IMG/VR virus record: IMGVR_UViG_3300047469_000056
Location: 1 to 22,911 of that record
DNA length: 22,911 nucleotides
Origin: a virus
Strand: one strand, 5' to 3'
The notes under the pieces were generated by a model, which searched no databases, was not told the origin of the DNA, and saw only the letters and a list, made by a program, of their open reading frames with translations. Position numbers and translations under genes: made by a program. The stretch's first letter is position 1. Every line of letters starts with the position of its first letter. Positions 2,001 through 22,308 of this stretch are shown piece by piece.

Positions 2001-2028
2001 GGACACGCCATGAGCGAGAGGAATTCTT

Positions 2029-4146: not shown

Positions 4147-4147
4147 A

Positions 4148-4684: not shown

Positions 4685-4851
4685 AGATCCTATGGAGTCT
4701 CCGCATGGCCTACTGGATCAAGTGGGCTGGATACGAGAAGACGTGGATAGGTGCCTGGCAGTTCGCCAATGACGAATGCTTCCAGCAGTACCGTGAAGAC
4801 GGCTATTCGCCCCGCCATACGATCATGGAAGACTTGGGGCACGGACTATGA
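4681..4851 (+). CDS. Small hypothetical phage protein
   Basis: The ATG at 4681 overlaps the previous TGA and yields 56 residues beginning MKILWSLRMAYWIKWAGYEK. It is aromatic-rich and ends IMEDLGHGL. It could associate with membrane, but no clear transmembrane segment is present. The longer in-frame version from 4612 would lie inside the preceding gene. Confidence 0.55.
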   Translation: MKILWSLRMAYWIKWAGYEKTWIGAWQFANDECFQQYREDGYSPRHTIMEDLGHGL

Positions 4852-5144: not shown

Positions 5145-5806
5145 CAATGACGATTGAGCAGGTTCGCGATGAACTTATCAAGGAGGCAGAGTGGTATGAA
5201 TCTCGCCTTGGCGATTACAAGACCCCTGACTTCCGAGCCATGGCTGACGCCATCGACTTCCACCTCTCCCAGCCCCAGCCCGTTGTGCAGGGGGAGGCTG
5301 TGGCTTGGCTAGACAATCACGGCAACGTGTATGACGAGCTAGTTATGGCACAACACAACTGTGACCCCGGATCAGTACCGACGCCTCTTTATAAGTCAAC
5401 ACCCACCATCCCCACCAGCTACAGGCTCGTGCCTGTTGATGAATTCAGCGACAAGGTTGAGCGTGCACTATCCGAACTGGTCGATAAGATCGTTCCCGGC
5501 CTTGACACCGGGGACATCATCGCCGATGCGAAGGCGGCATCAGAGGCTATGAATGGACGCGTCCTCGCGCCATTAGTGGCGACGCGCGAAATAATAGAGT
5601 CTGGTCGAAAGAGCCTGATCGAGTCAGGCAAGGCAAATGTCACCTATGACACGACAGCAGCATACGCCTACGCCGAAATGCTCAACGCAGCACCGACAGT
5701 GGTGGGTGATGGAAAAGAGGAGGCTAACCGAGGTCACAGCATTCGACCTAACTGCGGCAGTGAAAGGAGGGTACGTCACCATGACCCAAGCCAGTGTGAC
5801 GGATGA
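5141..5806 (+). CDS. Ea22-like modular early phage protein
   Basis: The 221-residue product includes a segment VQGEAVAWLDNHGNVYDELV ending in TPLYKSTP near residues 50-90. The 'EAVAWL ... PLY..P' block is a recurring module of Ea22-like and related small early phage proteins. Helical segments flank it, and a YAYAEMLNAAPTV stretch marks a common domain end; the last 30 residues look unrelated and overlap the next gene. The family role is unknown. Confidence 0.65.
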   Translation: MTMTIEQVRDELIKEAEWYESRLGDYKTPDFRAMADAIDFHLSQPQPVVQGEAVAWLDNHGNVYDELVMAQHNCDPGSVPTPLYKSTPTIPTSYRLVPVDEFSDKVERALSELVDKIVPGLDTGDIIADAKAASEAMNGRVLAPLVATREIIESGRKSLIESGKANVTYDTTAAYAYAEMLNAAPTVVGDGKEEANRGHSIRPNCGSERRVRHHDPSQCDG

Positions 5807-6077
5807 AATGATCGATAAGGCTATGACCGCCTACGACGAATTCATAGGTGCGGATGACGAGGCAGATTACGAAGCCATGCGCGCCGCACTTGAAGCCGCC
5901 ATATCCACCCAGCCCAAGGCAGTGAGTATGGAGAAGCTGGAGGCTTTTCAGGCCGAGTTTGAGTCGTCTCCGGTTCGCAAAGGACAGAGCAGCTACGACC
6001 TTGGCTACTTCGACGGATACCGCGACGCATTGGGTGCAGCGATAGACCTAACGGCCATCATCGGCGAGGGGGATTGA
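5781..6077 (+). CDS. Hypothetical early phage protein
   Basis: AAAGGAGG at 5763-5770 is an excellent ribosome binding site ten bases before the ATG at 5781, so this start is preferred over longer in-frame versions. The 98-residue product has two helical blocks (DEMIDKAMTAYDEFIGADDE, YEAMRAALEAAI) similar to those attached to Ea22-like proteins, and a C-terminal GYFDGYRDALGAAID. It overlaps the previous gene by 26 bases. Confidence 0.65.
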   Translation: MTQASVTDEMIDKAMTAYDEFIGADDEADYEAMRAALEAAISTQPKAVSMEKLEAFQAEFESSPVRKGQSSYDLGYFDGYRDALGAAIDLTAIIGEGD

Positions 6078-6078
6078 G

Positions 6079-6351
6079 GTGAGTGAATACGTGAATCCTA
6101 ATCGTGTTCCAGCGAAGTACATGACGGTGAAGAACTGGCGGTGGTGGGTAAGTCTGCCACTGACAATTGCGCTTCTACCGCCGGTCGCCGTCATCTATGT
6201 CATGGAACCCGTTGGCCGATTCCTACAGAAGATCGGGGAGCGTTGGGACTGGTGGGCCGACCGGAAGTTCGGCCCGATCAGGTCGTGGATACAGAAGGGC
6301 GGCATAACCGCCTACAACCGCCGAAAGGAGGTGGGCAGTGAGCATGGTTGA
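6079..6351 (+). CDS. Small membrane protein
   Basis: The product has 90 residues from a GTG start one base after the upstream TGA. A hydrophobic segment near residues 23-43 (WVSLPLTIALLPPVAVIYVM) follows a basic, Trp-rich leader and predicts one transmembrane helix. The C-terminal half is cytoplasmic-looking (basic, Trp-rich, RWDWWADRKFGPIRSW). No known family; it could be an exclusion or envelope-acting early protein, which is speculation. Confidence 0.6.
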   Translation: MSEYVNPNRVPAKYMTVKNWRWWVSLPLTIALLPPVAVIYVMEPVGRFLQKIGERWDWWADRKFGPIRSWIQKGGITAYNRRKEVGSEHG

Positions 6352-6643
6352 GGAATTGAAGGCTGCGATTGACGCGGTGCGTGCTGCCTATGCTAAGACT
6401 GACTGTATTGAAAGTAGCGAGGCATACGATCTTGCGTACAGCCGAACTTTCGACGTTATCTGCTACCACGGCCAAGCGCTGATTGAGGCAGTGGCTGATG
6501 CGGAGCGTTACAGGTGGATTCGTGAGCACAGCTACGTTGAGTTTACCTGTGACAGCCCGCGAAATGTCTATATGACCAATGAACAGTTCGACTCATATGT
6601 AGACCTTGCCCGAACCAAGGCCGGGGCGGGAGGTGAGAAATGA
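6338..6643 (+). CDS. Ea22-like early protein with DAERYRWIRE motif
   Basis: The product has 101 residues. GTG at 6338 is six bases after a strong AAAGGAGGT; ATG at 6344 is the alternative. The motif ADAERYRWIREHS near residue 56 is a recurrent element of Ea22-like and other small early phage proteins. The remainder is helical. The function is unknown. Confidence 0.7.
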   Translation: MSMVEELKAAIDAVRAAYAKTDCIESSEAYDLAYSRTFDVICYHGQALIEAVADAERYRWIREHSYVEFTCDSPRNVYMTNEQFDSYVDLARTKAGAGGEK

Positions 6644-6840
6644 ATACTGTGGCGATGTGGATCGGATACGTGACCATGGTATCCGGTGGCGTACTTTTCA
6701 TAGCCGGAGTTGTTTGGAGTGCCGCCTATGCAATCAATGTCTCATGCAGTAAGGCACTCGCGTCATACGGGGGCTGGAAAGTGTTCAAGGAATTCGTTAA
6801 GTGGCATCGCCAGAACAAGAATGCGGGAGGTGGGGTGTGA
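6640..6840 (+). CDS. Small membrane protein
   Basis: The 66-residue protein has one hydrophobic segment at about residues 4-32 (IGYVTMVSGGVLFIAGVVWS) and a basic C-terminal tail (EFVKWHRQNKN). It therefore probably spans the inner membrane once, with the tail inside. It is the second small membrane protein in this stretch, and its start overlaps the upstream TGA. Confidence 0.6.
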   Translation: MNTVAMWIGYVTMVSGGVLFIAGVVWSAAYAINVSCSKALASYGGWKVFKEFVKWHRQNKNAGGGV

Positions 6841-7076
6841 GGCTGAGGACTGAACTTGTCGAACACGCCAAGGGAGACTCGCGTCCATTAGTGGCTGGTC
6901 ACTACGACGCATCAATGGACACGTTGGTCAATTCACTAACCCACGACGCAGCCTTGGCCCATGCGCTAACACAGGCCATAGCCGAGGCCCGCAATCACTG
7001 CCACGGATCGTGGGATACGTGCGATTTCATTAGGGAAAGGGCTGACGAACTACTTAAATCGTGGGGTTATCTGTAA
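6837..7076 (+). CDS. Hypothetical early protein, WG-end paralogue 1
   Basis: GTG at 6837 overlaps the previous TGA and follows a GGGAGG stretch; product 79 residues. It has DAALAHALTQAIAEA in the middle and ends RERADELLKSWGYL. The next two genes share this plan (an alanine-rich helix, then a helix ending in W-G), so it is the first of three tandem paralogues. The role is unknown. Confidence 0.65.
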   Translation: MRLRTELVEHAKGDSRPLVAGHYDASMDTLVNSLTHDAALAHALTQAIAEARNHCHGSWDTCDFIRERADELLKSWGYL

Positions 7077-7276
7077 TGAAGTTCAACACAAAACTTACAG
7101 TAGAAGGCGTCAACACAAAGGTCACCGGTAACTATGGGGCCTTCAATCTTGATGCGGCATTAGCCCATGCCATGTACGTAGCCATGAGCGACCTTGACAG
7201 CTCGGGGGATATTTCAGGCATCTCGTTTACCCTCCGCCAAGTTGAGATACGTGCCGACGAACTTTTACGAGAATAG
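7076..7276 (+). CDS. Hypothetical early protein, paralogue 2, ending at TAG
   Basis: The product has 66 residues from an ATG overlapping the previous TAA. It shares DAALAHAMYVAMSDL and IRADELL with the upstream paralogue. It ends at TAG where the paralogue has TGG (Trp): DELLRE-TAG-GY against DELLKSWGY. Reading TAG as an amino acid continues in frame through GYGGAD into the ORF at 7295-7474, making a 132-residue protein. Whether the TAG is a true stop, a Trp-to-stop mutation or a recoded codon is not settled. Confidence 0.6.
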   Translation: MKFNTKLTVEGVNTKVTGNYGAFNLDAALAHAMYVAMSDLDSSGDISGISFTLRQVEIRADELLRE

Positions 7277-7294
7277 GGATACGGGGGGGCTGAT

Positions 7295-7474
7295 ATGAAA
7301 AGCTATGAAATTAAATCGAAACTTCATGCGGCATATCGGGCTGGCTACCTGCTAGCCGTCTCATACGGGTTCGCCGGCTCAGAAGCAGACTTCGATAAAG
7401 ACTCGTTCTCCACTGACGAAGCAACTGATCTTATGCGTATCGATGATGAAACTTATGACTCGGAGGACAGGTGA
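7295..7474 (+). CDS. Small hypothetical ORF in frame with the preceding gene
   Basis: The ORF gives 59 residues: MKSYEIKSKLHAAYRAGYLL, an AVSYGFAGSEADFDKDS segment and an acidic end DDETYDSEDR. A run of G at 7283-7289 may serve as a weak ribosome binding site for the ATG at 7295. It is in the same frame as the gene ending at 7276 with only TAG between them, so it could equally be the C-terminal half of a TAG-readthrough product. No family recognised. Confidence 0.5.
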   Translation: MKSYEIKSKLHAAYRAGYLLAVSYGFAGSEADFDKDSFSTDEATDLMRIDDETYDSEDR

Positions 7475-7818
7475 TGAGATACATAGGTAAGCCTATTGAG
7501 GTCGCCCAGATTCTCGAAGACTACCGATACAACTCCCAAGATATATACGACCCCATAATTGAGATACGAAGTGACGGAAAGGGAGGTTGGTTTCCTAATG
7601 GCCCAGGATGTGGAAATGAGTACGTCTTCTTCCTTGCCAGGGCGTTCTACGATGCCCTACATGCCCTTGAAGAGGTGGAGATGCATGAGGGACACCAAAT
7701 GTTCTCTATAGAGGATCTGAGTGGCCTAATCACGGCCAACCTTAGGCGGTGGGGTGCAATAGATCTTCAGGACGAGCTTTACCCTCTATACATGGGCGAG
7801 GAAGACGTAAATGGCTGA
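7474..7818 (+). CDS. Hypothetical early protein, WG-end paralogue 3
   Basis: ATG at 7474 follows GGAGG (7462-7466) at good spacing; a GTG one codon upstream is an alternative. The 114-residue product opens MRYIGKPIEVAQILEDYRY and contains ARAFYDALHALEEVE and LITANLRRWGAID, the same helix-plus-WG layout as the two genes upstream, with an extended N-terminus and C-terminus. The function is unknown. Confidence 0.65.
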   Translation: MRYIGKPIEVAQILEDYRYNSQDIYDPIIEIRSDGKGGWFPNGPGCGNEYVFFLARAFYDALHALEEVEMHEGHQMFSIEDLSGLITANLRRWGAIDLQDELYPLYMGEEDVNG

Positions 7819-8167
7819 CGTGGATCTCATGCACTGCTTTCGTCGCGCCCTGAAGGATTGGGAAGAACTTCGCATAGGGGAGCATGAAGAATCTGACGAT
7901 GATAGCGAGGCCCCATGGGATGAGTTTTACGTCCGATGGGTGGAGGATCGCGTGGCATCTCTGATGAGGGACGCCGAAGAGAACGGTGTCGACCTTCCGG
8001 AGGTCAATGGTTGTGAATTCTCCCCGGAGATCGCGCTCAACCGTGCCGCTTACATTATCAGTCGTGGAACTGACGTCGATCGCGAGACCAGATGTATGGC
8101 GATCATGGCAATGCAGCTTTATGACTGGGCAATTGGTCGCCAGGGGGTGAGAAGTGGCAAATGCTGA
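7811..8167 (+). CDS. Hypothetical acidic early phage protein
   Basis: The product has 118 residues from an ATG overlapping the previous gene by eight bases. It is very acidic in the first half (EHEESDDDSEAPWDE) and helical in the second (ALNRAAYIISRG, AIMAMQLYDWAIGR). No motif recognised. It is the last unknown gene before the integration block. Confidence 0.6.
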   Translation: MADVDLMHCFRRALKDWEELRIGEHEESDDDSEAPWDEFYVRWVEDRVASLMRDAEENGVDLPEVNGCEFSPEIALNRAAYIISRGTDVDRETRCMAIMAMQLYDWAIGRQGVRSGKC

Positions 8168-8411
8168 TATTCCGGATTGGCTGACCGAGGAACACAAGAA
8201 GCGTCTTCGCCCACAAGAGCCAAGAATAAGGTTCCTTCGCCTTCCGGAGGTGTGCTCGGTGACGGGTCTGAGTCGTACACATGTATACCGACTACAGAGT
8301 CGCGGAGATTTTCCTAAAAGCATCAAGCTAGGCTGCATGACTACGGTGTGGGTTGAGTCCGAAGTCCAGACTTGGTGCCGCGAACGAATCGAATCATCGA
8401 GGTCGAAGTGA
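8154..8411 (+). CDS. AlpA/MerR-like excisionase-type DNA-binding regulator
   Basis: The 85-residue protein starts at GTG 8154. Residues 27-70 read FLRLPEVCSVTGLSRTHVYR, then LQSRGDFPKSIKLG and WVESEVQTW: the canonical AlpA pattern, a winged helix-turn-helix followed by the G-x-FP-x-x-x-xLG wing and a W-x-x-x-EV helix. AlpA proteins activate prophage excision genes or act as excisionases. Lying three genes upstream of the integrase in the same operon, it is a good candidate for recombination directionality factor or int regulator. That role is inferred. Confidence 0.85.
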   Translation: MANADIPDWLTEEHKKRLRPQEPRIRFLRLPEVCSVTGLSRTHVYRLQSRGDFPKSIKLGCMTTVWVESEVQTWCRERIESSRSK

Positions 8412-8554
8412 TGACTGTCGAATGGGATGAATTCATCGGCACACTTGATGGAAACCTAACATCTGACGAAATGAAGCGTCTATGGGATCTAATCAATGAC
8501 GTTGCAGAGAGAAGGCTTCGTGAGAAGTTTGGAGGTTCGGGCGATGAGCGATGA
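8411..8554 (+). CDS. Very small hypothetical protein
   Basis: The ATG at 8411 overlaps the AlpA-like stop. The product is 47 residues, MTVEWDEFIGTLDGNLTSDE followed by a basic-acidic helix (LWDLINDVAERRLREKFG). It overlaps the DUF4224-like start by 11 bases. No family is recognised; the coupling on both sides suggests it is translated. Confidence 0.55.
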   Translation: MTVEWDEFIGTLDGNLTSDEMKRLWDLINDVAERRLREKFGGSGDER

Positions 8555-8756
8555 CAAGCTCTGCCTGTCCCGAGAAGAAATCGCCGAGTTCACCAGGGCG
8601 CACACGCGCGCCCGCCAGTTGGCTTTCCTGCGTAACAACGGGATTCGGCACTACGTGGACAACAACGGCTGGCCTGTGGTGACGGTTGCTGCAATTGAGG
8701 GCATCAAGGCGGAATCACGCCAGCGCACGCCGTGGAAGCCGCACAAGGCCGCATAG
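8544..8756 (+). CDS. DUF4224-like small protein beside integrase
   Basis: GGAGG at 8531-8535 supports the ATG at 8544; product 70 residues. It contains LSREEIAEFTRAHTRARQLA, FLRNNGIRHYVDNNGWPVVT and ends RTPWKPHKAA. This is the DUF4224 pattern (L..eEi.elT......Q...L...GI.h......PvV), a small protein commonly found immediately upstream of phage integrases. Its end at KAA then TAG agrees with the normal family end, so TAG seems to be a true terminator here. If read through, only seven residues would be added before TAA at 8775-8777. The integrase ATG begins one base after the TAG. Confidence 0.85.
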   Translation: MSDDKLCLSREEIAEFTRAHTRARQLAFLRNNGIRHYVDNNGWPVVTVAAIEGIKAESRQRTPWKPHKAA

Positions 8757-8757
8757 G

Positions 8758-9777
8758 ATGGGACGACGCCCGAGTAACCCGAATGCCATCCCTCGCCTGA
8801 GGCTGCGTAAGCGCCCGTCAGGGGTGCACTATTACTACGACCACGGCGGCACACCGCGCCGGGAGGAGCCGCTTGGAACGGACTATGGGCTGGCAATCCT
8901 GAAGTGGGCGGCCTACGAGAAGAATCGGCACGCTCAAGAGGTTGTAGCCGAGGTCGTGACTTTCCGGCATGTCTCCGACCGCTACCGCGCCCTTGTTATA
9001 CCCAACAAGTCGCCGGCCACTCAGCGTGGCAACGAGCGAGAGCTACGCCAGCTCTTGGCGTTCTTCGATAGCCCGCCATGCCCGCTAGACGACATCCAGC
9101 CTCAGCACGTCCGCATGTACCTGAGCAGTCGGTCATCGGCACCAGTACGCGCGAACCGGGAAAAGGCCCTTCTGTCCCACATCTGGAACTTCGCCAGGGA
9201 TTATGGGTTCACCTCCCTCGCGAACCCTTGCGCCGGCATCAAGGGGAACAAGGAGCGAGCGCGGGAGATGTACGTCACGGACGGGGCATTCAAGAGTCTA
9301 TGGAACGAGGCCAGCCAGCCGCTACGGGACGCGCTCGACCTTGCCTACCTCACGGGTCAGCGGGTGTCTGACGTTCTCAGGATGAGCGATGGGGATGTGC
9401 GCGACGGGGCGCTAGAGGTGACGCAGGCCAAGACCAAGGCTCGCCTCCGCATATCGGTCACGGGCGAGCTTGCGGCATTGCTGGAGCGTATCGCCGAGAG
9501 GAAGCGCGGGTATGCCATCCATGCCCTGCGGCTGATCGTGGACGAGCGAGGGAAGCCCCTGACCTACGCCAAGCTCCGAAAGCGATTCGACGATGCCAGG
9601 ATTGCCTCTGGCGTGGACTTCCAGTTCCGTGACCTTCGGGCCAAGGCGGCATCCGACAAGGCCGATTCCAGTGGGGATATCCGGCAGGCTCAGAAGCAGC
9701 TAGGCCATACCTCCGTGGTGATGACAGAGGCTTATGTCCGGTCAAGACGAGGGGCGAAAGTCAGCCCCACGAAATGA
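8758..9777 (+). CDS. int: Tyrosine-family phage integrase
   Basis: The 339-residue protein begins MGRRPSNPNAIPRLRLRKR, the N-terminal arm-binding style of phage integrases; the in-frame ATG at 8686 lies inside the previous gene and is not used. A core-binding SAM-like region spans roughly 65-150 and the catalytic domain 165-335. Catalytic residues are Arg202 (TGQRVSDVL), Lys at 225 or 227 (VTQAKTK), Arg294 in FRDLRAK, His317 (QLGHTS) and Tyr326 (TEAYVRSR). The first position of the usual HxxR box is Arg291, a variant I recall from related phage integrases. The enzyme inserts phage DNA at a tRNA; the matching tRNA-Leu fragment starts 64 bases downstream. Confidence 0.96.
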   Translation: MGRRPSNPNAIPRLRLRKRPSGVHYYYDHGGTPRREEPLGTDYGLAILKWAAYEKNRHAQEVVAEVVTFRHVSDRYRALVIPNKSPATQRGNERELRQLLAFFDSPPCPLDDIQPQHVRMYLSSRSSAPVRANREKALLSHIWNFARDYGFTSLANPCAGIKGNKERAREMYVTDGAFKSLWNEASQPLRDALDLAYLTGQRVSDVLRMSDGDVRDGALEVTQAKTKARLRISVTGELAALLERIAERKRGYAIHALRLIVDERGKPLTYAKLRKRFDDARIASGVDFQFRDLRAKAASDKADSSGDIRQAQKQLGHTSVVMTEAYVRSRRGAKVSPTK

Positions 9778-9779: not shown

Positions 9780-10010
9780 ATTGCGGAACGGATCAGGAAT
9801 TGCGGAACGAAATGGCTATGGCGAATACCCTCGCAGCCCTTGGTGCCCGGAGTGGGACTCGAACCCACATACCCTTACGGATGAGGGATTTTAAGTCTGT
9901 CGTGAAATGGCCGTACAAAGCCGTTTATGGACCATTCCTGTTCCGATTACATAGCGATTTCATGATATCCATATCCCTTGTTTTAGGATGCCAAGGAAAT
10001 ATTGCGGAAC
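9780..10010 (+). repeat. Three direct copies of ATTGCGGAAC around the attachment core
   Basis: Exact copies of ATTGCGGAAC occur at 9780-9789, 9799-9808 and 10001-10010, all in the same orientation. Two lie between int and the tRNA fragment and one lies on its far side. A degenerate inverted form (GTTCCGATT) lies at 9940-9948. Short direct repeats on both sides of a core are the usual layout of integrase arm-type binding sites in attP. Direct observation of repeats; function inferred. Confidence 0.8.
9841..9897 (-). other. Attachment-site core: 3' part of tRNA-Leu(UAA)
   Basis: On the minus strand the sequence reads from the anticodon loop ACTTAAAATCCC through a long variable arm, a T arm GTGGG-TTCGAGT-CCCAC (9852-9868), the acceptor strand TCCGGGC and an encoded CCA (TGG at 9841-9843). 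The anticodon is UAA, so the target is a class II tRNA-Leu. The 5' half is missing: no GCCCGGA acceptor strand or D arm is found upstream on this strand. A phage-borne 3' tRNA fragment beside int is the expected attP core; if the window is an integrated prophage with permuted order it could instead be an att end. Confidence 0.9.
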
Positions 10011-10297: not shown

Positions 10298-10783
10298 TTA
10301 CGCCCGGCTATCGGCCACCGTGATGTTCTTGAAGGCCGTAGCAAGGGCAGCATCCGTCACGGTGACGCGGTACACGCCGGAGGCCGCACTACCCTGGGGC
10401 GGGTTGCCGGCACGCGCAAAGGTCGTGCTCTGACCGCTTGGTGTACCGAGGGTGTACGTGCTGCCGCTGATGTTGGTCCATGCGTAGGTGTACGGAGGCG
10501 TGCCGCCGCTCGGGCTAGCGAAGCCGGTCCCGAAGATGCTACCCGTACCAGGCCAGCTATCGCCGCTTACATCGTTGGCATTGACCGACAGCGGACCGAC
10601 ACGGGTTGCCCCGTAGAAGTTTGTCAGGCCGATGGCTCCGGAGGTGGGCACGCCTGCGTTAGCTCCGGTATTCGCCACCCACGTACCGCCACGGTAGAAG
10701 GAGGTCAGTCCCGTACCGCGAGGGGCGAGGAATTCGTCCTAGATACTCTGAAGCGATATCGCCCCGCTGGCCGGAAGGGTCAT
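10298..10783 (-). CDS. Tail/fibre-type protein with Ig-like domain; one in-frame TAG
   Basis: The ATG at 10783 overlaps the fibre stop as TAATG. The N-terminus MTLPASGAISLQSI-TAG-DEFLAP is the classic 'LPASGxISLxxI..E' opening of phage structural proteins, including the SFYRGG element, and is found only if the TAG at 10739-10741 (codon 15) is read through; Gln fits. Later comes GGTPPYTYAWTNISGS ... GVYRVTVTDA, an Ig/PKD-like beta-sandwich pattern around residues 90-155. Product 161 residues, stop TAA. Probably a virion surface or fibre-associated protein; inference from domain and position after the tail fibre. Confidence 0.82.
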
Positions 10784-12039
10784 TACTTGCCCTCCAGAGC
10801 CCGTACGCGGGCCGCCAAGCCGATCACTGCCTCAAGGGCCAGCATTGCCTTGTCCACGCCGAGAACGCCGCTATCGTCCTCATAGACGTACTCGGGGGCC
10901 ACCTCGCGAACCTCATCAGCGATCACGCCAAGGTCAGGGCGGCTGTCCTTCTTCCACGTAAAGGAGACGAAGTTCAGCGAGTCGGCAAGATCCTGACGCG
11001 CCTTCCGCTTCTTGACGTACTTCTTCAGGCGGCGATCCGACGTGGCGATGAAGTTCGGACCTGTCCAGACGCCCGTGACCGTCGTGTTGCCCGTCGTGGC
11101 GCTGATGGTGATGGTGTCACCAAGGCCGCCATTGAAGAACAGGCGGGCTGACCCCGTCGTGTAGTACCACTGGGCAGTGGCACCCGAGTTTGTACGATCG
11201 GCGAACGTGAATCCGCAGCCGCCACCATCCACTGCCACCTGATTGTGGACCGTGACCTGACCGCTAGAGGTGATGGCACCCGAAGTCACCAGCGTGGATG
11301 CGTTAATGGCCGTCAGGTTGACGGTTGCCAGCCCTTCGTGGACGAGGCGGTTAGCGACGGCGCCCGCAGACCAGCCACCCACCTTCCACGCGTTGTCCGT
11401 ATCAATACCGAGGTAGGAGGCAAAGGCACCTGTTCGGTTGAATTCGAGGAAGGCCGCATTGGCGCCTGATGCACCAACCACGGCAACCTTGCCCAGCGAG
11501 GCGGTAGCCGTTGCCATGCCGCCCGACGTAGGTGCTGTCGTGACCTTGCCGGTAAGTGTGCCACCGACAAGGGGGAGATAGGCCGCAAGGACCGTCGTCA
11601 GGTCGGCAATATCGGCCGAGGCAATCTTCGATCGCGGCCCCGTCATCCGCCAGTTGCCGGACCCAAGGCTGCGGAAGGTGAAAACGTCCCCCGCGGCTGC
11701 CGTGATATTTGCGGCATTCGGAAGGACAATGGCGGTAGAGTTGGTAATGACGGCACCGGCCGACTGGAAAACTACCTCGCGCTTGATACCGGGAGGGGTC
11801 GTGCCGAAGCTGGTAATCGCGGCCGAGCCGGTGACGATGACGGACTCGGCATCAGCGGTTCCCAGATCCGTCGTCGAAGCCGATGCGAGTGTGGCCGAGG
11901 CAAGGGCATTCGTGGACCGGAGAATGGCCTACACGGCCCGCAGGTAGTCGTCCAGGCTGTTACCAATAGCGTCCGACCCCGCAGGGCTGTTACTAGCCGG
12001 AAGGGTCGCCAGATCGGACATTTTAGACGGAACGGGCAT
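10783..12039 (-). CDS. Tail fibre/spike with C-terminal S74 intramolecular chaperone; one in-frame TAG
   Basis: The 418-residue product starts at ATG 12039 behind GAGGTG. The N-terminus has PAGSDAIGNSLDDYLRAV followed by TAG at 11929-11931 (codon 37), then AILRSTNAL; Gln fits this helical virion-anchor region. A beta-rich central part includes YLPLVGGTLTG and VTSGAITSSGQVTVHN. The end is a peptidase S74 chaperone: ATSDRRLKKYVK (Ser334), FTWKKDSRPDLGVIADEV, YVYEDDSGVLGVDKAMLALE and a terminal helix. This domain trimerises the fibre and then cleaves itself off at the Ser of SDRRLK. The gene follows the ejection genes, as expected for a podovirus receptor-binding protein. Confidence 0.92.
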
Positions 12040-12062: not shown

Positions 12063-12260
12063 ATGCTGTTATTCATCAAGATATTTGGCGGATTCATCAT
12101 AGCTCCGCTCGTCACGGTGCTTTTGTATGGCACCGCCCGGCTTGTCGCGATGGCCGTCGCCAAATGGATGCCAGAGTGCGGGCTCAAAAGAGCCCTACTC
12201 ACCGATACAGAAACGAAGAAGCTGGCTTACATCCCGCCTGCGAGCAAGCCGCGACGCTGA
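12063..12260 (+). CDS. Small membrane protein on the opposite strand within the late module
   Basis: The 65-residue product MLLFIKIFGGFIIAPLVTVL continues through YGTARLVAMAVAKWMP and ends with the basic tail PPASKPRR. It has one transmembrane helix. The layout (hydrophobic helix, ARL...A..MP...LKR.L) is reminiscent of tiny membrane proteins in other phages. AGAGGG lies just upstream of the ATG. Its last 34 bases overlap the end of the ejection-protein gene on the other strand, and it contains no TAG. A lysis or exclusion role is possible but unsupported. Confidence 0.65.
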   Translation: MLLFIKIFGGFIIAPLVTVLLYGTARLVAMAVAKWMPECGLKRALLTDTETKKLAYIPPASKPRR

Positions 12261-14152
12261 TTCACTTGCGGGGCCGCTGTTGACTGACCGAGCAGACCGG
12301 CACTCATGCCCAGATTTTGCAGTAAAGCACTCTTGGTGGCCGGATCGATGGTCGGATCACGCAAGACCTTAGCCAGTACTTGTGGCGAACTATTTAGTCC
12401 CTGGAAGGCTCGTGCAGCACCAACCGCAAACCCCGCAGCGGGAAGATGAGTTGCTCCACCGGCTCCAAGTAGCCCATAGGCAGCGAGCCTCTCAGGTGTT
12501 CCGCTATTCGGAATGCCGTCCTTAAGGAACTGCTGTCCAATTGCAGCAAGCTCGGCAAGATCGCCCCCGCGACCGGATGCTACAGCCTCCTTCTTTGCGC
12601 CAGTCGCCGTTACTCGACCGAGTAGAGCGGCAGGACTGATATTTCCGTTTACCTGGTCCTTGGTGACGAGGTCACGAATTGTCTTTAGGTTGCCGTATTG
12701 CTGATTTGCCTGCCGCCACGCCGCCTGGTCTGCCGGGGAAATTGAATCATCAAGGGCAGAGGAGAGAATGCCGCGGATCTAGCCGGCATAGTTGCCCTTC
12801 TCACCACCGGACCGCGCAATTTGCCCGAGCTGGGACTGGACCGACTGAAACGCCGTGCCAGGAAGCAGCCCTTCCTGGGTAGCCTGTTTCTGGATTCGGC
12901 CGAGAAGGCTGGTGACGGCACGAACACTGTCATCGCTACCCGTCTCCGTGGCTTCACCGAGAATGCCGGCAAGCTTATCCTTGACCCCATTCAGATCAAT
13001 GGTGTTGCGCGATGTGATGTCGTCGTAAGTGGCTCCAATCCGCTTCTTAGCAGCTGAGTACAGGGCCGGGGTTATGGCATCAGCGTCCTCACCGATGGTC
13101 GAAGCCACGGCACGATTAAACGCTTTTTGCTGGTCGGCCCCGATGCGGCCTGCTCCGCTGAAGGGCACCTTTGCGCTAACTGAATCGAGCGTCTTGCTGA
13201 TCCTACTGTCAGATACCTAGCTCGCCTTGAGTGGGATGCCGTAGTCCTGAATGGCCGTCTTCGCGAGAGCTGCGGCCTCTGGCGTAGCCTTGGACATAAG
13301 GTTTCCAGCCACCCATCCAGCAGTTCGACGTGCCACCTGACCGCCACCGGCGATAAGCCCGCGGCCGCCTACGCCAGCACCAGCACCGATGGCTGCATTG
13401 AGTAGGCGGTCACTCTCGTCCTGTCCGGAAGCCAACGGCTGCATAGCCCCTTGCGCAGCTCCGGACATTGCTGTTCCGCCGTAGCCTTCCGGAAGCACTC
13501 CGCGGGCCATGCCAGCTCCCTTGAGCGCAGTTCCCGCAGCCACGGCCTGAAGGGCTTGGCCTGTGATGTTGCCGAGCAAGCCCGACTTCGTCTTCATGAG
13601 GGCGGCATCACTGGCGTTAACCTAAGACTGCTGTTCTTTCAGGTCTCCATAGGTTTCCGCCAGTGGCTTTCCGACAAGGTCGGGGGAGCCCGTAATCTGC
13701 GCAGCCACACTAGTTGGGAGCGTGGCTAGTCTCGCAAGGCCAACCCCAGACTGGGCCATGCCTCGCATATTGTCTAAGACTGATTTCCCTGCTCCGGCTT
13801 CAAAATTTGATACGCCTGGAGACTGACCTATGCCAGTGTCAATTCCGGCGACACTGAGGTTACTGCCACTCTCTGCCGCTGAATTATGGTACGCCGCCAA
13901 TTCTTCCTGTGTCGGACCGCGCAGAGTCGCGCCCTGTGCACGAAGACCACGAAACAGGGCTGTAGATGCTTCGTCGTCGCCTGCTGCGCGGGCGCGGTAG
14001 AAAGCCTGCGCTAGCGCCTCAGGGTCATACTGAGTGGCCGCTTGGGAAGGCTGCGCCTAGTTAATCGCTCCCTGGAGCACTGCGACCGCCTACTAGTCAC
14101 CAGAAGACTAGGCATTGGCTAGTGCAGCCTGAAGCTGTTCAATGGTCGCCAT
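12227..14152 (-). CDS. Large ejection-type internal virion protein; seven in-frame TAG codons
   Basis: ATG at 14152 overlaps the previous TAA as TAATG. A single frame runs to TAA at 12227-12229, 641 residues, if TAG is sense. The TAGs are codons 15, 20, 21, 32, 177, 312 and 458 (14108, 14093, 14090, 14057, 13622, 13217, 12779). The start reads LQAALANA-TAG-SSGD-TAG-TAG-AVAVLQGAIN-TAG-AQPSQ, a helix where Gln is natural. Later parts are Ala/Gly-rich and amphipathic (GNITGQALQAVAAGTALKGA, AIGAGAGVGGRGLIAGGG) with long helices, typical of podoviral DNA-ejection proteins. No TGA or TAA interrupts the frame. The ejection role is inferred from composition and gene order. Confidence 0.9.
14090..14095 (-). 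other. Tandem TAG TAG codons inside the ejection-protein gene
   Basis: Codons 20 and 21 of the gene starting at 14152 are adjacent TAGs, in the context SSGD-TAG-TAG-AVAVLQ. Two more TAGs lie at codons 15 and 32. Translation past this point needs efficient amber decoding. Confidence 0.95.
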
Positions 14153-15375
14153 TACTTGCCCCCATGTAGGGCCAATGCCTGCTCAACAGTCATGCCTTGC
14201 GGTGCAGAAGCCGCCTGCGGAGCCCCACCCGTGGCCTTCTGCACGGCCATGCCCTTCTTCTTAGCCCGCTCAAGACCCTGCCTGAGAACGCCAACGGCGA
14301 CATCTACGTGCTTGATAACATCAGCCTTCGACATATTCGGGTCAATTGCAGAGATGGCATCGGTGGCCTTCTGGCCCTCTACATCCGTGATTGCGCCACC
14401 ACCACGAAGCTGATTGAACGCCTGAAGGAACAGGCTTCCTTTGAAGCTGTCGAGATCACGTCCGAACGTGTAAGCATCCGTGCCGGGGATATTTCGCGTG
14501 ATTCCGCCGATGATGCCTGTGCCCTCTCCAATTCCCTTCGACATTTTCAGCGCGTTGGCTGCATTGATAGCGTTGGTAACGTTGTCGATGCCGGCCTCAG
14601 ATGCTTGCGTGGCGTCAGCATTCTTCAATTGCTGGCTGGTGTCTCGGAAGGTGTTATTGCCGATGACGCCAGCACCGCCAGCCTGCACAGGAGTAACTTC
14701 GCCAGTGATCTTGTTGACGTTGTAATACTGGCCGTCCTTCCCCTGGATGAGCTGGAACGCGCCGGGACCGAAGTGCCCGCCGCCCGCGCCACCAGATCCG
14801 CCAATACCCATCTGCTTCGGGTTCCAGCGAGGGGCGGTAGCGATCGTTTTCCACGAGCCATCCGGCTGCTGCTCCTGCGTCAGGATGTTGTCACCGCTGT
14901 TGATCTCGCGTGTCGTTCCCTGGAGGTCGCGCTGTGCCTTGTCCGTCTGCAAGCCAACTAGCTTGTTGCGTAGTTCGTTCTGGTGCAATTCCATGGCCTG
15001 TTGCGGATACTTCTCCGCGACTTTGGCGATGTAACCCTCCATGTCGTTCTTGCCGTTACTAAAGAACGGAAGCGCCATATCTTGGATGTCACGACGGATG
15101 CGGATCTGCTCCTGCTCGTCGTCCATCTTCGACTGCTGAAACTGCATTTGCTGCTGCTTGAACTTGTCTTGCTGTAGCTGCTGCCCACCCTACTGAGCGG
15201 CCTGAAGACCACCCAACAGACCGCCGGAGATAGCCTGCATGGGCGACACGCCCGGCTGACCGTTGGCCTGAAGAATGCCCAGCCCGGCCTGCAACAGGCC
15301 ACCACGGGCAAGCTGCGCCCTCTCGTCATCCGAGGCGCCGGGGGTGGGGCCGATAAGACCGTCATACCAAGCCAT
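14152..15375 (-). CDS. Gln-rich internal virion / ejection-type protein; one in-frame TAG
   Basis: ATG at 15375 overlaps the preceding TGA as TGATG. The start MAWYDGLIGPTPGASDDERA runs into a helical segment GGLLGGLQAAQ-TAG-GGQQLQQDKFKQQQ; the TAG is at 15190-15192 (codon 62) in a Gln-rich coiled-coil-like stretch. With it read as sense the product is 407 residues, ending TAA. The middle includes DGQYYNVNKITGEVTPVQ and a C-terminal helical region with SFKGSLFLQAFNQLRGGGAI, familiar from phage structural proteins of the ejection group. Function inferred from position between other ejection-type genes. Confidence 0.88.
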
Positions 15376-15788
15376 CAGCGCATACTCCCAAGCAGTCCGA
15401 GACGAGAGCCGTTACCGATGTATCCGGCCTGACCTTGCTGGACCTGACCAAGAGCGCCGCCCGCACGACCGCCACCGAACTATGGCTGACGGTACGCCGC
15501 CATATCCGTCTGTTGCGGGTTAGTCTGCTGGGAATTCAGTGCAGCAAGTGCCTGCTGGAAGGAAGGGCCCTGCGCCTACTGGCCGGGGTACTGGCTTTTC
15601 TGTAGCGCCCACTGGCCGATCTTAGAAAAGTCCAGGCCTTGTGTAGCCGCAGACTATGCCTGTCCGCCACCAAGCACCTGGCTGTAGTCCGTCGCCGGCT
15701 GGAATTGCTGGTATTGCTGCATCGGTATCTACGCTTGTGCATTTGCGTTCGGTGCGGCCATGCCTGAGAGAAAATCGAAAGTGCCCAT
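15375..15788 (-). CDS. Small Gln-rich virion protein; four in-frame TAG codons
   Basis: The frame from ATG 15788 to TGA 15375-15377 gives 137 residues if TAG is sense. TAGs are codons 20, 45, 71 and 103 (15729, 15654, 15576, 15480). Contexts: NANAQA-TAG-IPMQQYQQF, GGGQA-TAG-SAATQ, QYPGQ-TAG-AQGPSF, AAYRQP-TAG-FGGGRAGG. The protein already has 25 Gln codons, so four TAGs would bring Gln to about one residue in five. Under the standard code no product longer than 57 residues remains in this frame, so the gene is missed entirely by ordinary gene finding. Likely a small internal or tail-assembly protein. Confidence 0.88.
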
Positions 15789-15797: not shown

Positions 15798-16886
15798 TTA
15801 GAGGTAATAACCCATAGCAGCAAGTCCGCCACCGATAAGTGCGCCTGCGCCTGCACCGATGGGACCGCCGGCCGCACCAATCGTTGCACCAGTGGCAGCG
15901 CCAGCTAGCGCACCGCCACCTACCGCAGCAGCAGCCCCACCAGCCGTGCGTGGCTTGTACGCGGGGTTGGTGCCAGAGGTGGACGAGCCCTGGAAATTGC
16001 CCGCTACAGAATTGAGGGCGTTCCCGTAGTTATTGAGCCGCTGCTGATCGTAGCCGTAGTTCTTCTGATACCAGTCGTTGTAGTTCTGATCGATGTTGCC
16101 CTGGGCGAAGTCCTGCTGCACCTGACCCATGCCGGCAAGCTGGCTGTTCCATTGCGACTGTAGGGCCTGCTGACCGTTGAGTGCGCTCGATGCGCCAAGG
16201 AAGTTCTGGACGCTCTGCCCTGCCGACTGGAGGTTGTTCTGGAAATACTGCTGGTCCAGTGCCGAGTTGCGCGCAAGGTCGGTCTACTGGGCCTGTACGG
16301 ATCGGTTGAGCGCGTTCTCGGCAAGGCCCTGCTGGGTCGTGTAGTCGTTGAATCGGAGGCTATTCGTGGACTGCGCGAGGTTCTTCGCCAGCGTGTCCTA
16401 GGATGCCTGCCCGGCCTGCTGCATGGCCGAACCGCCGAATGCCCCACCCTGTGCGAACTGGGCCGCTAGAGCTGGCACGGCGTTCTGGTTGTACTGGTCG
16501 GTAATGTTCTGGTTCGAATCATTGACCATCTGGTTGAGGTACTGATTCTGTCCCGCGTAGGGGTTGGTGCCGACGTTGGTCGTTGCGCCCTGATACGCGT
16601 TGCGGTTCACGGGAACGTTGTACAGGCCGTTAAGGACGTTCGTCAGTGCACCCGACTGAGAGTACGTCCCCGGCAGCTACCCAGCGGCACCTGCTTGTGC
16701 CGTCTGCAATGCCTGGTTCTGTCCGGACGAGAGGCCGGCGTTGAGCTGGCCCTAGTAGGACTGGTACGGCTTTGCATTGGCCGCATTTGTCTGCCCGAGG
16801 AAGTCGGTGTATGCCGTATTGAGCCACGGCGGCAGCTCCGTCTTGGTCGTGGAGGTCGTGTTCTTTGGTGCTGAAGACCCGCCCAT
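15798..16886 (-). CDS. Ejection-type virion protein with glycine-zipper end; four in-frame TAG codons
   Basis: ATG at 16886 overlaps the previous TAA as TAATG; stop TAA. The 362-residue product has TAGs at codons 45, 70, 163 and 201 (16752, 16677, 16398, 16284). Contexts include KPYQSY-TAG-GQLNAGL, GAAG-TAG-LPGTYSQSG, QQAGQAS-TAG-DTLAKNL and NRSVQAQ-TAG-TDLARNS. Early ELPPWLNTAYTDFL and 'PYQ.Y.GQ..AGLS' are known openings of podoviral internal proteins. The middle is Gln/Asn-rich helix; the last 50 residues are Gly/Ala-rich (GGGALAGAATGATIGAAGG), a glycine-zipper membrane-inserting segment. Likely part of the DNA-ejection apparatus. Confidence 0.9.
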
Positions 16887-17329
16887 TAGGTAACCTCGTA
16901 ATATGCTTTCATGAGACGAAACCTCTTACTCTTGACCCACGAGGAATCCTGAGTGGTTGAGAACACGATGCGCTCCAGGCCCATTTCACCCGCGATGCGT
17001 TTGGACAGTTCGATGCCGTAATGGCCGTAGTCCGACTTCTCTGCATGACCTAGCCAGATATTAAGGACCGGGCTTGTTTCGTAGGCCACAGGCATCACTT
17101 CGTAGACACCGAATCCGGCATGCACACCCTACATATCGGTAAAGGTGTACAGGGCCGCTCTGCCGGTCGCCAGGGCCGTGTAAACGTCCTCCGGAATCCA
17201 CGACTCGCCATTGCACTCCCTGATCTTCACAATGCCGGGGAGGACGATGGGCCACGCCTGTCTAACGTCGGCCACGTAGGTGTAGTTCAGGACGCCATCG
17301 GCTGTTACGCCGGAGATGTTAGGAAACAT
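16886..17329 (-). CDS. GNAT-like small phage structural-cluster protein; one in-frame TAG
   Basis: The preferred ATG is 17327-17329, three bases after the previous gene's TAA; an upstream in-frame start at 17365 would overlap that gene. The TAG at 17129-17131 (codon 67) sits in LYTFTDM-TAG-GVHAGFGV. Read as sense it joins two halves into 147 residues: EDVYTALATGRAALY, then VLNIWLGHAEKSDYG and RIAGEMGLERIVFSTTQDSS. This layout resembles short acetyltransferase-fold phage proteins found next to tail genes. No substrate can be named. Stop TAA overlaps the next start. Confidence 0.85.
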
Positions 17330-17331: not shown

Positions 17332-17640
17332 TTAGTTGCCTGTAAGAGTGCGGACGGGGAGCCATGTGCCTGGCGTACCGGCGACGGTGCAGGTCCAGCC
17401 CTGTACGGTGTATTTCGAGCCAGCGGTGCCCAGTTCAGTCGGGGCGGAGTTGCGTACGAAGTCGCCCGCTGCATTCGTTCCCGACACGGGGATCGTGGCC
17501 TGCGCGTTCTGCACGGCAGCCACACGCCCTTCGGTCAGGTTGTTCAACTGGTTCGTCAGGTCGCGGATGATGTTCGTGAGCCGGAGGACGAGCTGTTGCT
17601 AGTCGCTGGGCAGGCGCGGATCGGTGAGTAGACGGGTCAT
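17332..17640 (-). CDS. Small virion protein; one in-frame TAG
   Basis: ATG at 17640 overlaps the upstream TGA. The N-terminus reads MTRLLTDPRLPSD-TAG-QQLVLRLTNIIRD, TAG at 17599-17601 (codon 14), immediately followed by CAA CAG, so amber as Gln would give QQQ. The C-terminal half (AAGDFVRNSAPTELGTAGSK, GWTCTVAGTPGTWLPVRTL) is a familiar phage tail-associated module ('GDFVRNS.P.ELG..GSKY...GW.C...GTPG.W...R.LTGN'). Product 102 residues, stop TAA. Confidence 0.88.
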
Positions 17641-19094
17641 TCGGTTGTCGTCGCCAGGAGGTCGGGCATGTAGCCGTCGATCGTCATCGCACCCGGCCAG
17701 TCCATCCGGCAACTGTGCCAACGGGCATCGCGATGGAAGTCGAAGCGACCGCGGCTCTGCATGATCGTGGCGTCCTGCACGGGATCGGTGCCAAGGTCGT
17801 AGCGGTAGTAGTTCGTGCCCTGTGCCGAGTCCGGGGCGTTCCTGTATCGCGGGGTGACGCGGCGGAGCATGGAGAAGTTCGTCTCGTCGCCGATGTCGCC
17901 CGTGATGAGGTAGGACGGTCCCGGAATACCGGTCAGGCTGTAGAGCTTATGGTCCGTGCTGATGACGCCAGGAACCGTGTTGTCCTGAATCCAGAACGGT
18001 GAGTCGTAGCTGATGTTCGGCAGGGCGTCGTAGGTGGCGTAAAGCGTTCCCAGTCCATCGTAGGTGACGTTGCCGGAGGAATACTGAATCACCGCCTCGA
18101 TGGATCGAGTGAACTTGCCCCACTTGTTCGTGCGCAGGTTGTAGACGATGCATTCGTCACACGTCCCGTCCGTGGATGCGGTGCTGGGGAAGTACCAGTA
18201 CACCAGATCGCGGGTCAGGTCGGCACCGCCCTTGATATTGCCTCGCTGCAGGCCGTTGAGGTTGGTGAAGAACCATTCGCGAACCGGAGCACCGATGCTA
18301 CGCGGCACCGTGCCATCGTAGACGTAGAAGTCAGCCGGGCCGACGAAGAAATGGGACGAGCCCACGACCACGACCGCCTCTTGCCCGGAGCAGCCGATAT
18401 CGCCGGGGATGCGCTGCCATGACCAGATCAGGGGCGGGCCGGCGTACTACCCAAGGAACATGGAACGCTCCTTGTAGGCCACTACGGTGTCGCCTAGCTC
18501 ACGTCCAGCAGTGATCGGGCCGGGAGCCGTGACCAAGCGACCGTTGGCCGCCTGCGTCGTTGCAGAGGGCGTCCACGAGGCCTGGTTGAACAGGGCCGAG
18601 CACCACCACCCGTCAGGCTGGTCGCCGAAGCCTCCGGTCAGGTCCACGACGTTGAAGGCCAGCACGAAGTTAGCCGCCGAGCAGATGATGGCAGCAGCCG
18701 GTGCATCGGCGATATCGGCGAAGTTGGCCGACTGTGGGGCCTATTGGATGCGTTGGGCACGGTTGGCGGCAAGGATGTTGTTGCCGAACATGGTGAAGCG
18801 CCACGGAGCAAGGCCGGTGTAGCCGCCCACCCTGGATCGATCGGTCCACACGCCACCCGAGATGTCCCACAGCTTTGCGTTGGTGCCCGCGACGATACGC
18901 TTGGTGCCGTCCAGCAGCGTCCCAACGTAGGCACCCTTGCACGCACTGTCCAGCGCGGCGAGACCTGCATCTACCAGGCTGTTGCCAGCAGAGAAACCCT
19001 GCGTAGACGGGATGATATTGTCGCAATCGACGATGGCCCCCGGCGTCGAAGGGTCCAGATCGGGCGTGAAGCCGATAAGCGGGATGTTACTCAT
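17637..19094 (-). CDS. Phage tail/virion protein (propeller-like); two in-frame TAG codons
   Basis: ATG at 19094 overlaps the preceding TGA. The 485-residue product opens MSNIPLIGFTPDLDPSTPGA, continues with DCDNIIPSTQGFSAGNSL and GTKRIVAGTNAKLWDISG, the standard opening of a podoviral tail protein family with repeated beta blades. TAGs are codon 118 (18741-18743: NRAQRIQ-TAG-APQSANF) and codon 216 (18447-18449: RSMFLG-TAG-YAGPPLIWSW). The remaining segments (IGAPVREWFFTNLNG, VYNLRTNKWGKFTRSIEAV) match the same family order. Read with the standard code the gene falls into three pieces. Stop TGA. Confidence 0.92.
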
Positions 19095-19693
19095 GCCGTG
19101 ATGAAGTCCACATGCGGACGCGGCGAGGGTCCGTAGCGCAGCATGTCGTCATTAGCACGCATGGCCGTGAGTGCCGTAGTGTAGCCCTGACCGAACAGGG
19201 CCGTACGCTGGTCGTCGCGAAGGTAAATGCACGCCTCCAGAAGCGTCCCATACAGATACAGCTGTGGCTGGGCCAGAATCAGCCAGTTTTGCGTGGCTGC
19301 ATCGGAAAGACTGGGGATGTTGCCGTAGTAGAACAGACGGTAGTCCGCATCCGCAGCGCCCACGATATTGATGACGCCGTTGACCATGGTGTAGCCAATC
19401 GGGAGCACGAAAAGCTGAGAATTCGTGTCCTGAATCGGCGGAACAGGATACAACTCACGCTCGACGCCGTCAGTGGTGACGATGAGCGCCTGGACCTGTC
19501 GAAAATCCGAGGGCGGCGTGATCTGACCAGCTACAGACGTACCCGTTACAAGTCGCTGCTGAGGCGACAGACGCAAATCGTTGTTCATCCTCGCTTCGGC
19601 AAGCTGGATGAAGGTCGGAATGATGCCGCCTAGATCGGCACGCGCAAGAAACTACGCGACGTTGGATTGTAGGGTGGCGTAGTCGTTCAGCAT
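19091..19693 (-). CDS. Head-to-tail adaptor-like protein; one in-frame TAG
   Basis: ATG at 19693 follows the upstream TAA by three bases. The start MLNDYATLQSNVA-TAG-FLARADLGG leads to IIPTFIQLAEARMNNDLR, the typical opening of phage adaptor/tail-tube-type proteins ('YadL...va.wl.R.DL...ip.fi.laEarinrdLR'); the TAG is at 19652-19654 (codon 14). Later parts are FRQVQALIVTTDGVERELYP, VNGVINIVGAADADYRLFYY and the helical LYLYGTLLEACIYLRDD. Product 200 residues. By family and position it should sit between portal and tail. Confidence 0.9.
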
Positions 19694-20336: not shown

Positions 20337-21272
20337 TTACGTGAGGTCGCGGATCTGGGCGTGGGCGTCCTTGTTGTCCATCTGGAGGCCGAATTCCCAG
20401 GTAATCAGCATCTTTTCCGCATCGCCCGTCTTCGCCAGCGGCTTTGCCTCGACGTTACGCAGCGTCTTGAAGCTAACGTGGTCGTAGTCGAGCAGGTAGG
20501 CCGCGGCATCAATGAAACGATCCGGAACCACCTTCAGCGAGCCGAAGTCGGTCACGTATACGTCGTAAGCAGCGTGCAGCTTGTTGCTGTCGGCCTGCTC
20601 GAAACGCGTGGCGTTTCCGGTGAAGCCCGACACGATAACCTTGTCGGACGGACGGACGAGGAGCTGAGACGGAGCACCGCCAGCCGTGTAGGCCGTCTGC
20701 ATCGCCGACTTCACAAGTGCCTCGGAAAGCGCACGAGGCGTACCGGCGACCGGAGCCGTATTGGTGGACGGGACAGGAAAAACGCCAGCACCCGCACCCA
20801 CGGAACCCTGGGTGATCCAGCCAGCGAGTCCGCGCGTCTGGCGGGCGACAGTGGTGGAACCTGCGTTGAACGTGGTGTTCTGAACCAGGCCCGTTTCGGC
20901 GTCGCGCTTCAGTTCCTTGAGCTTCTTCGACTTCTGGTAGGCGATTTCCGACTTGCGGCCGGCCTTGTCGACCACTTCTTCGGTATCGGAGATGATGAAG
21001 TTCTTTGTCGAGACTTGGCAGTAATTGCCCCAGCGAGTAGAAGGAGTAACGGCCGTGAAGCTGGCAACGTCATCGCCTTCGAGCTGGGCGTTATTGGCCG
21101 CGGCAGCAAGGGAGTCGGTCTGCCATTCGAAGAAGCGGGCCGAAGCCTTGCCCTTCTTGAGCGCCGAGTAGAACGGGGTGTCAGTCGGCGAGATCATATC
21201 GATAACGTCCGACAGGTCCTCACGCTAGCCGATCGCGGAGTACGTGGTGTAGGTATTGGCAACAATGGTCAC
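20337..21272 (-). CDS. Major capsid protein, SU10/DUF5309-like; one in-frame TAG
   Basis: GTG at 21272 follows GAGGA at good spacing. The product (311 residues) reads MTIVANTYTTYSAIG-TAG-REDLSDVIDM then ISPTDTPFYSALKKGKA: the invariant start of the SU10-like major head protein family, where the peptide before ISPTDTPF normally includes 'G.REDLsD.I'. The TAG is 21225-21227 (codon 16). Starting instead at the downstream ATG (21197) removes this conserved N-terminus. Other family features are ARFFEWQTDSLAAA, NYCQVSTKNFIISDTEEVVD and FGSLKVVPDRFID. It forms the icosahedral shell. Stop TAA, then a hairpin. Confidence 0.95.
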
Positions 21273-21282: not shown

Positions 21283-22308
21283 TCATTTTGAGCGGGCCAG
21301 CAGGAATGCGGCGACATCATCGACATTGCCAGTGCGCTTGGCGCGTTTGGCTAGGTCGTCAACCCTCTTCTGTGCTGGCGTATTTGTGGGGGTGTTGGCA
21401 TTGCCGGCCTGGACCGCCTTGGGCGGGGTTTTGGCCTGCACTACCTGCTTCTGCTTAACTGCCTGCGCGCGATCCCACATAGCTGCCTTGTGGGCAATCA
21501 GGACGGCGCGGTGATCGATGAGTTCGCTCAGTTCGTCGGGGCTGTAACCTTGTGAGACGAGGAAGTCAGCCACATCGCGTTGGGCCGCTGCTCGCTTGGT
21601 CTGGTCACGCCACTCAGGCAACTTCTCCAGCAACCGTTCTTCGTTCTCGCGGAGAGATTCGTCGCGGGCTTTCGCCGCTTCGTTCTTCTTCATCTGCTCG
21701 ATGGCGGAATGGTGGTGCTGAATCTCATTGAGGCGTGCCGATTTGGACGCCATTTCCTGCTGTTTTGCGACCCATGCTGCGGGGTCGCTCTGGGCTAGCT
21801 CGGCAAGTTTCGCTTGGTCCCCTACAAGCTCCTGATAGAGCACGCTGCCGAGCACTTGAAGCTGGTTGATACGGGTCTCGTATTCCTGCTTCACGAACTG
21901 GCGTTCTTGCGTGATCTGCGAGGTTAGCTATGCGGCTTCTTGCGTCTTGCGGGTGTAATCCTGCTGCCGCATGTAGCCCTTGAAGGCTTCATCGACAGAA
22001 ACTTCCAGCTCCTCACCCTGGACGGTGATCTTCTTGGTCTTGGTCAGCCATTCGTCTTCCTTGGCCTTGGCTGCCGCGGCTTCCTTTTCCTCGGGAGTCG
22101 TCGTGTCGTCATCCTTGGCTGTGTCGTCATCCGTTACGGCATCATCTGCCTGTTCGTCGTCATCCTTGGGCTCGTCATCCGTCTTGGCCGGCTCATCCTA
22201 AGCGTCGTCCGGGTACTTCGGCTCAAGGCGCTTGAGAATTTCGTCTTCCGTCATCCCTTGCAAAGGTTCGATGGCGGTGTTTTCGACTTCCCCATTGGGA
22301 TTGGTCAT
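21283..22308 (-). CDS. Scaffolding protein; two in-frame TAG codons
   Basis: ATG at 22308 to TGA 21283-21285 gives 341 residues if TAG is sense. TAGs: codon 37 (22198-22200, PKYPDDA-TAG-DEPAKT) and codon 127 (21928-21930, RKTQEAA-TAG-LTSQITQER). The N-terminal third is extremely acidic (Asp/Glu repeats), followed by KKITVQGEELEVSVDEAF, GYMRQQDYTRKTQ and a long Gln/Glu/Lys coiled coil, with a basic Ala-rich end. This is the usual scaffold layout in phages, directly upstream of the capsid gene. It guides procapsid assembly and then leaves. Confidence 0.92.

Follow-up and report, generated by a model that had tools for sequence, protein, structure and literature searches.

TAG as a probable glutamine codon in the late genes of a temperate SU10-capsid phage lineage

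The minus-strand frame from 15788 to 15375 extends from an ATG to a TGA over 137 codons, but stays open only if four in-frame TAGs (15731-15729, 15656-15654, 15578-15576, and 15482-15480) are read through. This raises the question of what TAG means in this phage, and why a phage would keep stop codons in genes whose products it needs late. The gene is placed between ejection-protein-like genes and has homologues in related phages that are 44-65% identical, while Pfam and PHROG searches with it gave no match. An earlier note, made from the letters of this DNA, had proposed that TAG most likely decodes as glutamine because of the glutamines surrounding it. Re-reading the frame confirms the four TAGs among 25 Gln codons (19 CAG and 6 CAA) in exactly the quoted contexts (QA-TAG-IPMQQ, PGQ-TAG-AQG, and RQP-TAG-F), and two further TAGs, at 17599 ahead of CAA CAG and at 15190 within AAQ-TAG-GGQQLQQ, are found in their places as well. 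The neighbourhood is nevertheless a poor ground for the assignment. The gene as a whole is rich in Gln, and the density around TAG (2.25 Gln neighbours versus 1.75 for other non-Gln codons) is not significant (p = 0.30). Of the gene's four TAGs, the one at codon 45 alone aligns with Gln in the relatives. The meaning of TAG is decided by aligned columns from related phages.

The window and its in-frame TAGs

The whole stretch of DNA that was analysed (the window, 22.9 kb) is a viral record without host genome attached. Its plus-strand half (399-9777) encodes replication, excision, and integration functions together with many small genes, and its minus-strand half (22766-10298) encodes the scaffold, a SU10-type major capsid protein, and adaptor, structural, ejection, and tail-fibre-like proteins (Table 1). 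The integrase, the likely attachment site in a tRNA-Leu, and the head and tail genes together mark the window as a fragment of a temperate phage. The long relatives of this phage comprise 37-41 kb, and the window is best explained as covering one half of the genome of a temperate SU10-capsid phage (about 40 kb) infecting soil bacteria, with Rhodanobacteraceae or near kin as the probable hosts. In an annotated phage collection, nucleotide similarity to the window was limited to short capsid stretches, and an Rfam search of the window revealed nothing credible. Positions 1-190, at the contig edge, consist of a tandem repeat with a unit of about 30 bases that encodes (G-A-A-T-A-S-G) units, and this repeat may be the reason for the assembly break at the window start.

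Table 1. Features of the window with their in-frame TAGs.
Feature	Coordinates	Strand	Matches and TAG positions
Early region (phrog_21613 gene, RecE-like exonuclease, SSB, small genes, excisionase, tyrosine integrase)	399..9777	+	no in-frame TAG
Likely attP	9841..9897	-	3' part of tRNA-Leu(UAA), about 49 of 57 bases match the Dyella gene; adjoins integrase
Tail-associated gene	10298..10783	-	TAG codon 15 (10739-10741)
Tail-fibre-like gene with Peptidase_S74 chaperone domain	10783..12021	-	PF13884; TAG 11929-11931
Large DNA-ejection-protein-like gene	12227..14152	-	phrog_26400; seven TAGs, codons 15, 20, 21, 32, 177, 312, 458
Ejection/internal-virion-like gene	14152..15375	-	phrog_2534; TAG codon 62 (15190-15192)
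Gln-rich late gene, 137 codons	15375..15788	-	TAG codons 20, 45, 71, 103
DNA-ejection-protein-like gene	15798..16886	-	phrog_4287; TAG codons 45, 70, 163, 201
Late gene	16886..17329	-	likely start 17329; TAG 17129-17131
Small virion gene	17332..17640	-	likely start 17640; TAG 17599-17601, then CAA CAG
Virion structural protein	17637..19094	-	phrog_3287; TAG codons 118, 216
SU10-type adaptor protein	19091..19693	-	PF24175, phrog_2941; TAG codon 14
Major capsid protein (SU10_MCP)	20337..21272	-	PF17236 (299 bits), phrog_1328; TAG codon 16 (21225-21227)
Scaffolding protein	21283..22308	-	phrog_3927; TAG codons 37, 127

The 15 late genes contain 26 in-frame TAGs, which are spread over 12 of the genes, and not a single in-frame TAA or TGA. 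They terminate with TAA (nine genes) or TGA (six genes) but never with TAG. Thus, multiple genes are open solely with TAG readthrough while termination is left to the other stops, as is characteristic of genetic code 15. An apparent 27th TAG (20287-20289, in the gene at 19975-20325) was dropped because its gene probably starts at an ATG that lies behind it. The 24 early frames, in contrast, contain 95 Gln codons and no in-frame TAG (early versus late, Fisher p = 6e-4). Two early plus-strand frames end in TAG, at 7274-7276 and 8754-8756; in the first case a paralogue has Trp at this position, a few residues before its own end, so that this TAG may have arisen from TGG.

One of the relatives is the prophage of Dyella sp. 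SG609, a sequenced isolate, and is identical to the IMG record 2823768270 over the compared stretch. Because cross-genome homology gene calling chose some wrong frames between near-identical genomes, the counts of early and late codons are restricted to the curated genes of the window and to the Dyella record. The 29 late genes of the Dyella prophage (lysis, terminase, portal, head, tail, and ejection) contain 69 TAG versus 416 CAR codons, whereas its 27 early genes have no TAG versus 161 Gln codons (p = 1e-9), and none of the called genes ending inside the record stops at TAG. The best explanation is that the phage of the window has two decoding regimes, the standard code in the early genes and TAG as a minority Gln codon in the late genes for lysis, packaging, head, tail, and ejection. 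Another recoded prophage (L069, on contig C2 of G133 at about 233-234 kb) was found in a different genome of the same bacterial family; it adjoins a tRNA-Gly gene, its capsid protein is 51% identical, and it has its own divergent tRNA with a CTA anticodon. An order-wide prophage search yielded, apart from Dyella, one match, which is free of TAG.

Column scores and suppressor tRNAs

A scan for the capsid protein provided 28 relatives. For the alignment of their late proteins TAG was treated as an undefined residue, and the columns at TAG were then scored for all amino acids with BLOSUM62 probabilities. At the 25 sites of the window Gln scores +10.3, followed by Glu (+1.2) and Arg (-0.2), with Tyr at -13.4 and Trp at -23.5. 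Applied to sense codons as a control, the procedure assigns 58 of 59 correctly for the window, and 57-61 across the lineage groups. Against mainly non-recoded relatives (15 sites) Gln has +4.1 and the runner-up, Asn, +0.7. Gln also comes first in every other lineage group, if narrowly so in the L018 group with its few TAGs (17 sites; Gln +2.9, next Ser +1.1). A Ser, Leu, or Tyr meaning was considered for the class of suppressors with a long variable arm (L011, L014, and L021) and rejected, as Gln scores +57 there and the next residue, Glu, +4.5 (132 sites). Single columns illustrate the pattern: codon 118 of the virion structural gene is Gln or TAG in every aligned relative but one, codon 163 of the phrog_4287 gene is Gln in 15 of 18, and at codon 62 of the phrog_2534 gene the relatives have Gln (7) or TAG (3). 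A Codetta-type analysis of the TAG columns, which the earlier note had suggested as a check, therefore places Gln clearly first for the window and first in each related lineage.

The window itself contains no tRNA gene, but the sequence stops 1.6 kb upstream of the capsid gene, short of the place where one would be expected. In the relatives, a tRNA with a CTA anticodon lies 5.6-7 kb upstream of the capsid gene in the late direction, and no recoded relative with a contig reaching across this locus lacks it. The non-recoded L010 and L016 do not have it, and a scan for the combination of acceptor end and anticodon found no match in non-recoded relatives. The same scan detected suppressors that ARAGORN had missed (L015/L030, the Dyella prophage, L023, and G133). 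The ARAGORN label "tRNA-Pyl" on suppressors is solely due to the CTA anticodon.

The bodies of these tRNAs are very different, with 71-90 bases and normal, long-armed, or reduced shapes, the latter with a reduced D arm and an odd T loop. All have an unpaired 1-72, G2-C71, and G73 in common, and all except L018 have G3-C70. The bacterial Gln determinants comprise G73, U1-A72, G2-C71, G3-C70, G10, U34-U35-G36, A37, and U38 (PMC9976931). The relatives' suppressors have G73, a weak 1-72 pair, G2-C71, G3-C70 (not L018), U35, and A37 of this set, whereas G36, U38 (position 38 is A or C), and G10 (absent in L015) are not of the Gln type; A36 is forced by the CUA anticodon. An amber tRNA-Ser is known to have become a Gln acceptor once its acceptor pairs were changed (PMC9976931). 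The Dyella sp. SG609 genome encodes a GlnRS (690 bits at a cut-off of 426), and among the well-formed tRNAs recovered from this host the combination of U1-A72, G2-C71, G3-C70, and G73 occurs solely in two tRNA-Gln genes. None of the recovered host tRNAs has a CTA anticodon. The host genome also contains two weak, ill-formed tRNA-like sequences that adjoin each other (L120; contig C10, 113700-114200).

Given the Gln-type acceptor ends, the host GlnRS, and the published determinants, charging of the phage suppressor tRNAs with Gln by the host enzyme is well supported at the sequence level. Together with the column scores, this agrees with the earlier note's assignment, and we give the reading of TAG as Gln through a phage suppressor tRNA a probability of roughly 0.93.

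The suppressor genes show a further peculiarity. Over 50 bases on each side, the flanks of the L003 gene (4425-4499) are 94-98% identical to those of L002 (3796-3870) and L006 (4407-4481), while the tRNA bodies in between are 48% identical, which is random identity. The L003 body recurs with 93-100% identity in L004, L005, and L007 amid other surroundings. The suppressor tRNA gene thus seems to be swapped as a cassette of which the acceptor ends are kept.

For the phage of the window we suppose that the corresponding tRNA gene lies outside the contig, about 6 kb upstream of the capsid gene and in late direction. The host GlnRS would charge this tRNA with Gln, and the charged tRNA would compete with release factor 1. 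Such competition would mean that the late proteins have to await the build-up of the tRNA, and would be completed only after the suppressor has accumulated.

Position of TAG and rival explanations

Within the late genes of the window, TAG is found closer to the gene start than CAR (mean relative position 0.28 versus 0.48; within-gene permutation p < 0.0002). The same is seen in L018 (0.08 versus 0.48; five TAGs, one per gene), L023 (0.26 versus 0.53), and L014 (0.41 versus 0.52). CAA and CAG show no positional bias against each other in any genome, and five other synonymous pairs have at most scattered and weaker shifts. The clade of L018, L019, L020, and L029 has a suppressor tRNA, yet the late genes that were compared contain just about five TAGs, at one per virion gene; in L018 all of them are close to the gene start.

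Codon 16 of the capsid gene is TAG in the window and in 16 relatives across four clades, which are nearly all of the recoded ones. Elsewhere it is CAG, another sense codon, or uncovered, with CAG or another sense codon in the non-recoded relatives. Among those relatives with several TAGs that clearly cover the site, L017 alone has CAG; L025 and L026, which align too poorly or are too distant, stand outside this comparison. Fourfold sites between the clades are near random (0.35-0.50 identical versus 0.28-0.36 expected), and, except for capsid codon 16, sharing of TAG sites between clades is not above chance.

We therefore lean towards the view that early TAGs in virion genes are kept by selection as a regulatory translational lock, so that the late proteins would need the suppressor. 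For the more comprehensive proposal, a selected lock consisting of one or more TAGs early in most virion genes, capsid codon 16, and the TAGs of the five-TAG clade, and released by one exchangeable Gln-type tRNA, the chances appear about even. The strongest competitor, which we consider a serious if somewhat less probable alternative, is that TAG is an ordinary reassigned Gln codon that spread by CAG to TAG mutation once the suppressor tRNA was present, its bias reflecting avoidance of costly late truncation. This would agree with the turnover of TAG sites between clades, with the weak or absent gene-start bias in the TAG-rich genomes L011, L015, and L021, and with the lower Gln conservation of TAG columns compared to CAG columns (0.33 versus 0.49). 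However, an ordinary codon is less in line with a TAG at capsid codon 16 that persists across clades with near-random fourfold sites, with the L018 clade keeping its few TAGs so near the gene starts, and with early genes devoid of TAG.

The other explanations are far less probable. That some genomes have one or two TAGs per gene could suggest a leaky stop yielding two products per gene by natural readthrough, with no dedicated tRNA. This is highly unlikely, since one gene of a relative has up to ten TAGs, across which readthrough would be negligible, and since the CTA tRNA accompanies recoding wherever the locus is covered. Even less can be said for a meaning of Trp, Tyr, or another residue. 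The earlier note had left Trp or Tyr possible by eye, but the column scores, negative for both residues in every lineage, rule them out at the sequence level. It is true that the bacterial Trp identity also lists G73, G2-C71, and G3-C70, next to G4-C69, and that one early frame's TAG aligns to a Trp in its paralogue. Still, the CTA anticodon provides U35 as in Gln and not C35 as in Trp, and in Dyella the acceptor of tRNA-Trp differs (C2-G71) and tRNA-Tyr has A73. Another proposal, that the TAGs are sequencing errors or the nonsense mutations of a prophage in decay, has nothing in its favour except the presence of in-frame stops. It is similarly improbable because the same frames hold 26 TAGs without any TAA or TGA, TAGs are found again in independently assembled sequences as well as in a sequenced isolate, and protein conservation continues across the TAGs.

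Comparison with known recoded phages

Gln-inserting amber suppressors are familiar from E. coli, where acceptor mutants of su+2 and supF belong to this group. An amber tRNA-Trp and an amber tRNA-Ser with changed acceptor pairs are further examples (PMC9976931). As is supposed for the phage relatives, an amber tRNA becomes a Gln acceptor there through U35, the 1-72 pair, and G73, but the phage suppressors are natural tRNAs and present an unpaired N1-C72 or N1-U72 instead of U1-A72, on different bodies.

Phages that recode TAG to Gln in their structural and lysis genes and carry suppressor tRNAs are well established, as are such prophages in hosts with the standard code (PMC9523058, PMC10136315, PMC10746230, PMC11210395, PMC10879173). 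Code 15 is known from crAss-like phages, Lak phages, and recoded gut prophages (Peters et al. 2022, PMC9523058; Cook et al. 2024, PMC11210395; Borges et al. 2022, as cited in PMC10746230 and PMC10136315). The window is thus a new lineage of an already known type of recoding. It shares with the code-15 phages the Gln meaning of TAG, the restriction to structural and lysis genes, the occurrence in prophages, and, in the relatives, the CTA tRNA. In contrast to the large gut phages, the lineage described here is a temperate SU10-capsid phage of soil gammaproteobacteria with about 40 kb, in which TAG is a minority codon (about 4-16% of the Gln codons) biased to gene starts and the suppressor tRNAs have several unrelated bodies. 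From the Crassvirales and Lak phages with about 100 kb or more, the long relatives are set apart by their genome size of 37-41 kb and their SU10-type major capsid protein. The suppressor tRNAs of gut phages associated with theta ribozymes have likewise been suggested to turn on genes for lysis and structure (PMC10879173). Here, however, the CCA is encoded in the tRNA gene, and no ribozyme family reached the gathering score in six relatives.

For stop-codon recoding in phages, the leading idea is regulation of lytic genes, and its main basis is the choice of genes in which the codons occur. In this lineage, regulation is favoured by the position of TAG within the genes, by the conserved TAG of the capsid gene, and by the clade in which virion genes have about one TAG each. 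One relative resides as a prophage in a sequenced Dyella isolate, which makes the proposed lock accessible to ordinary genetics in a host other than the gut anaerobes.
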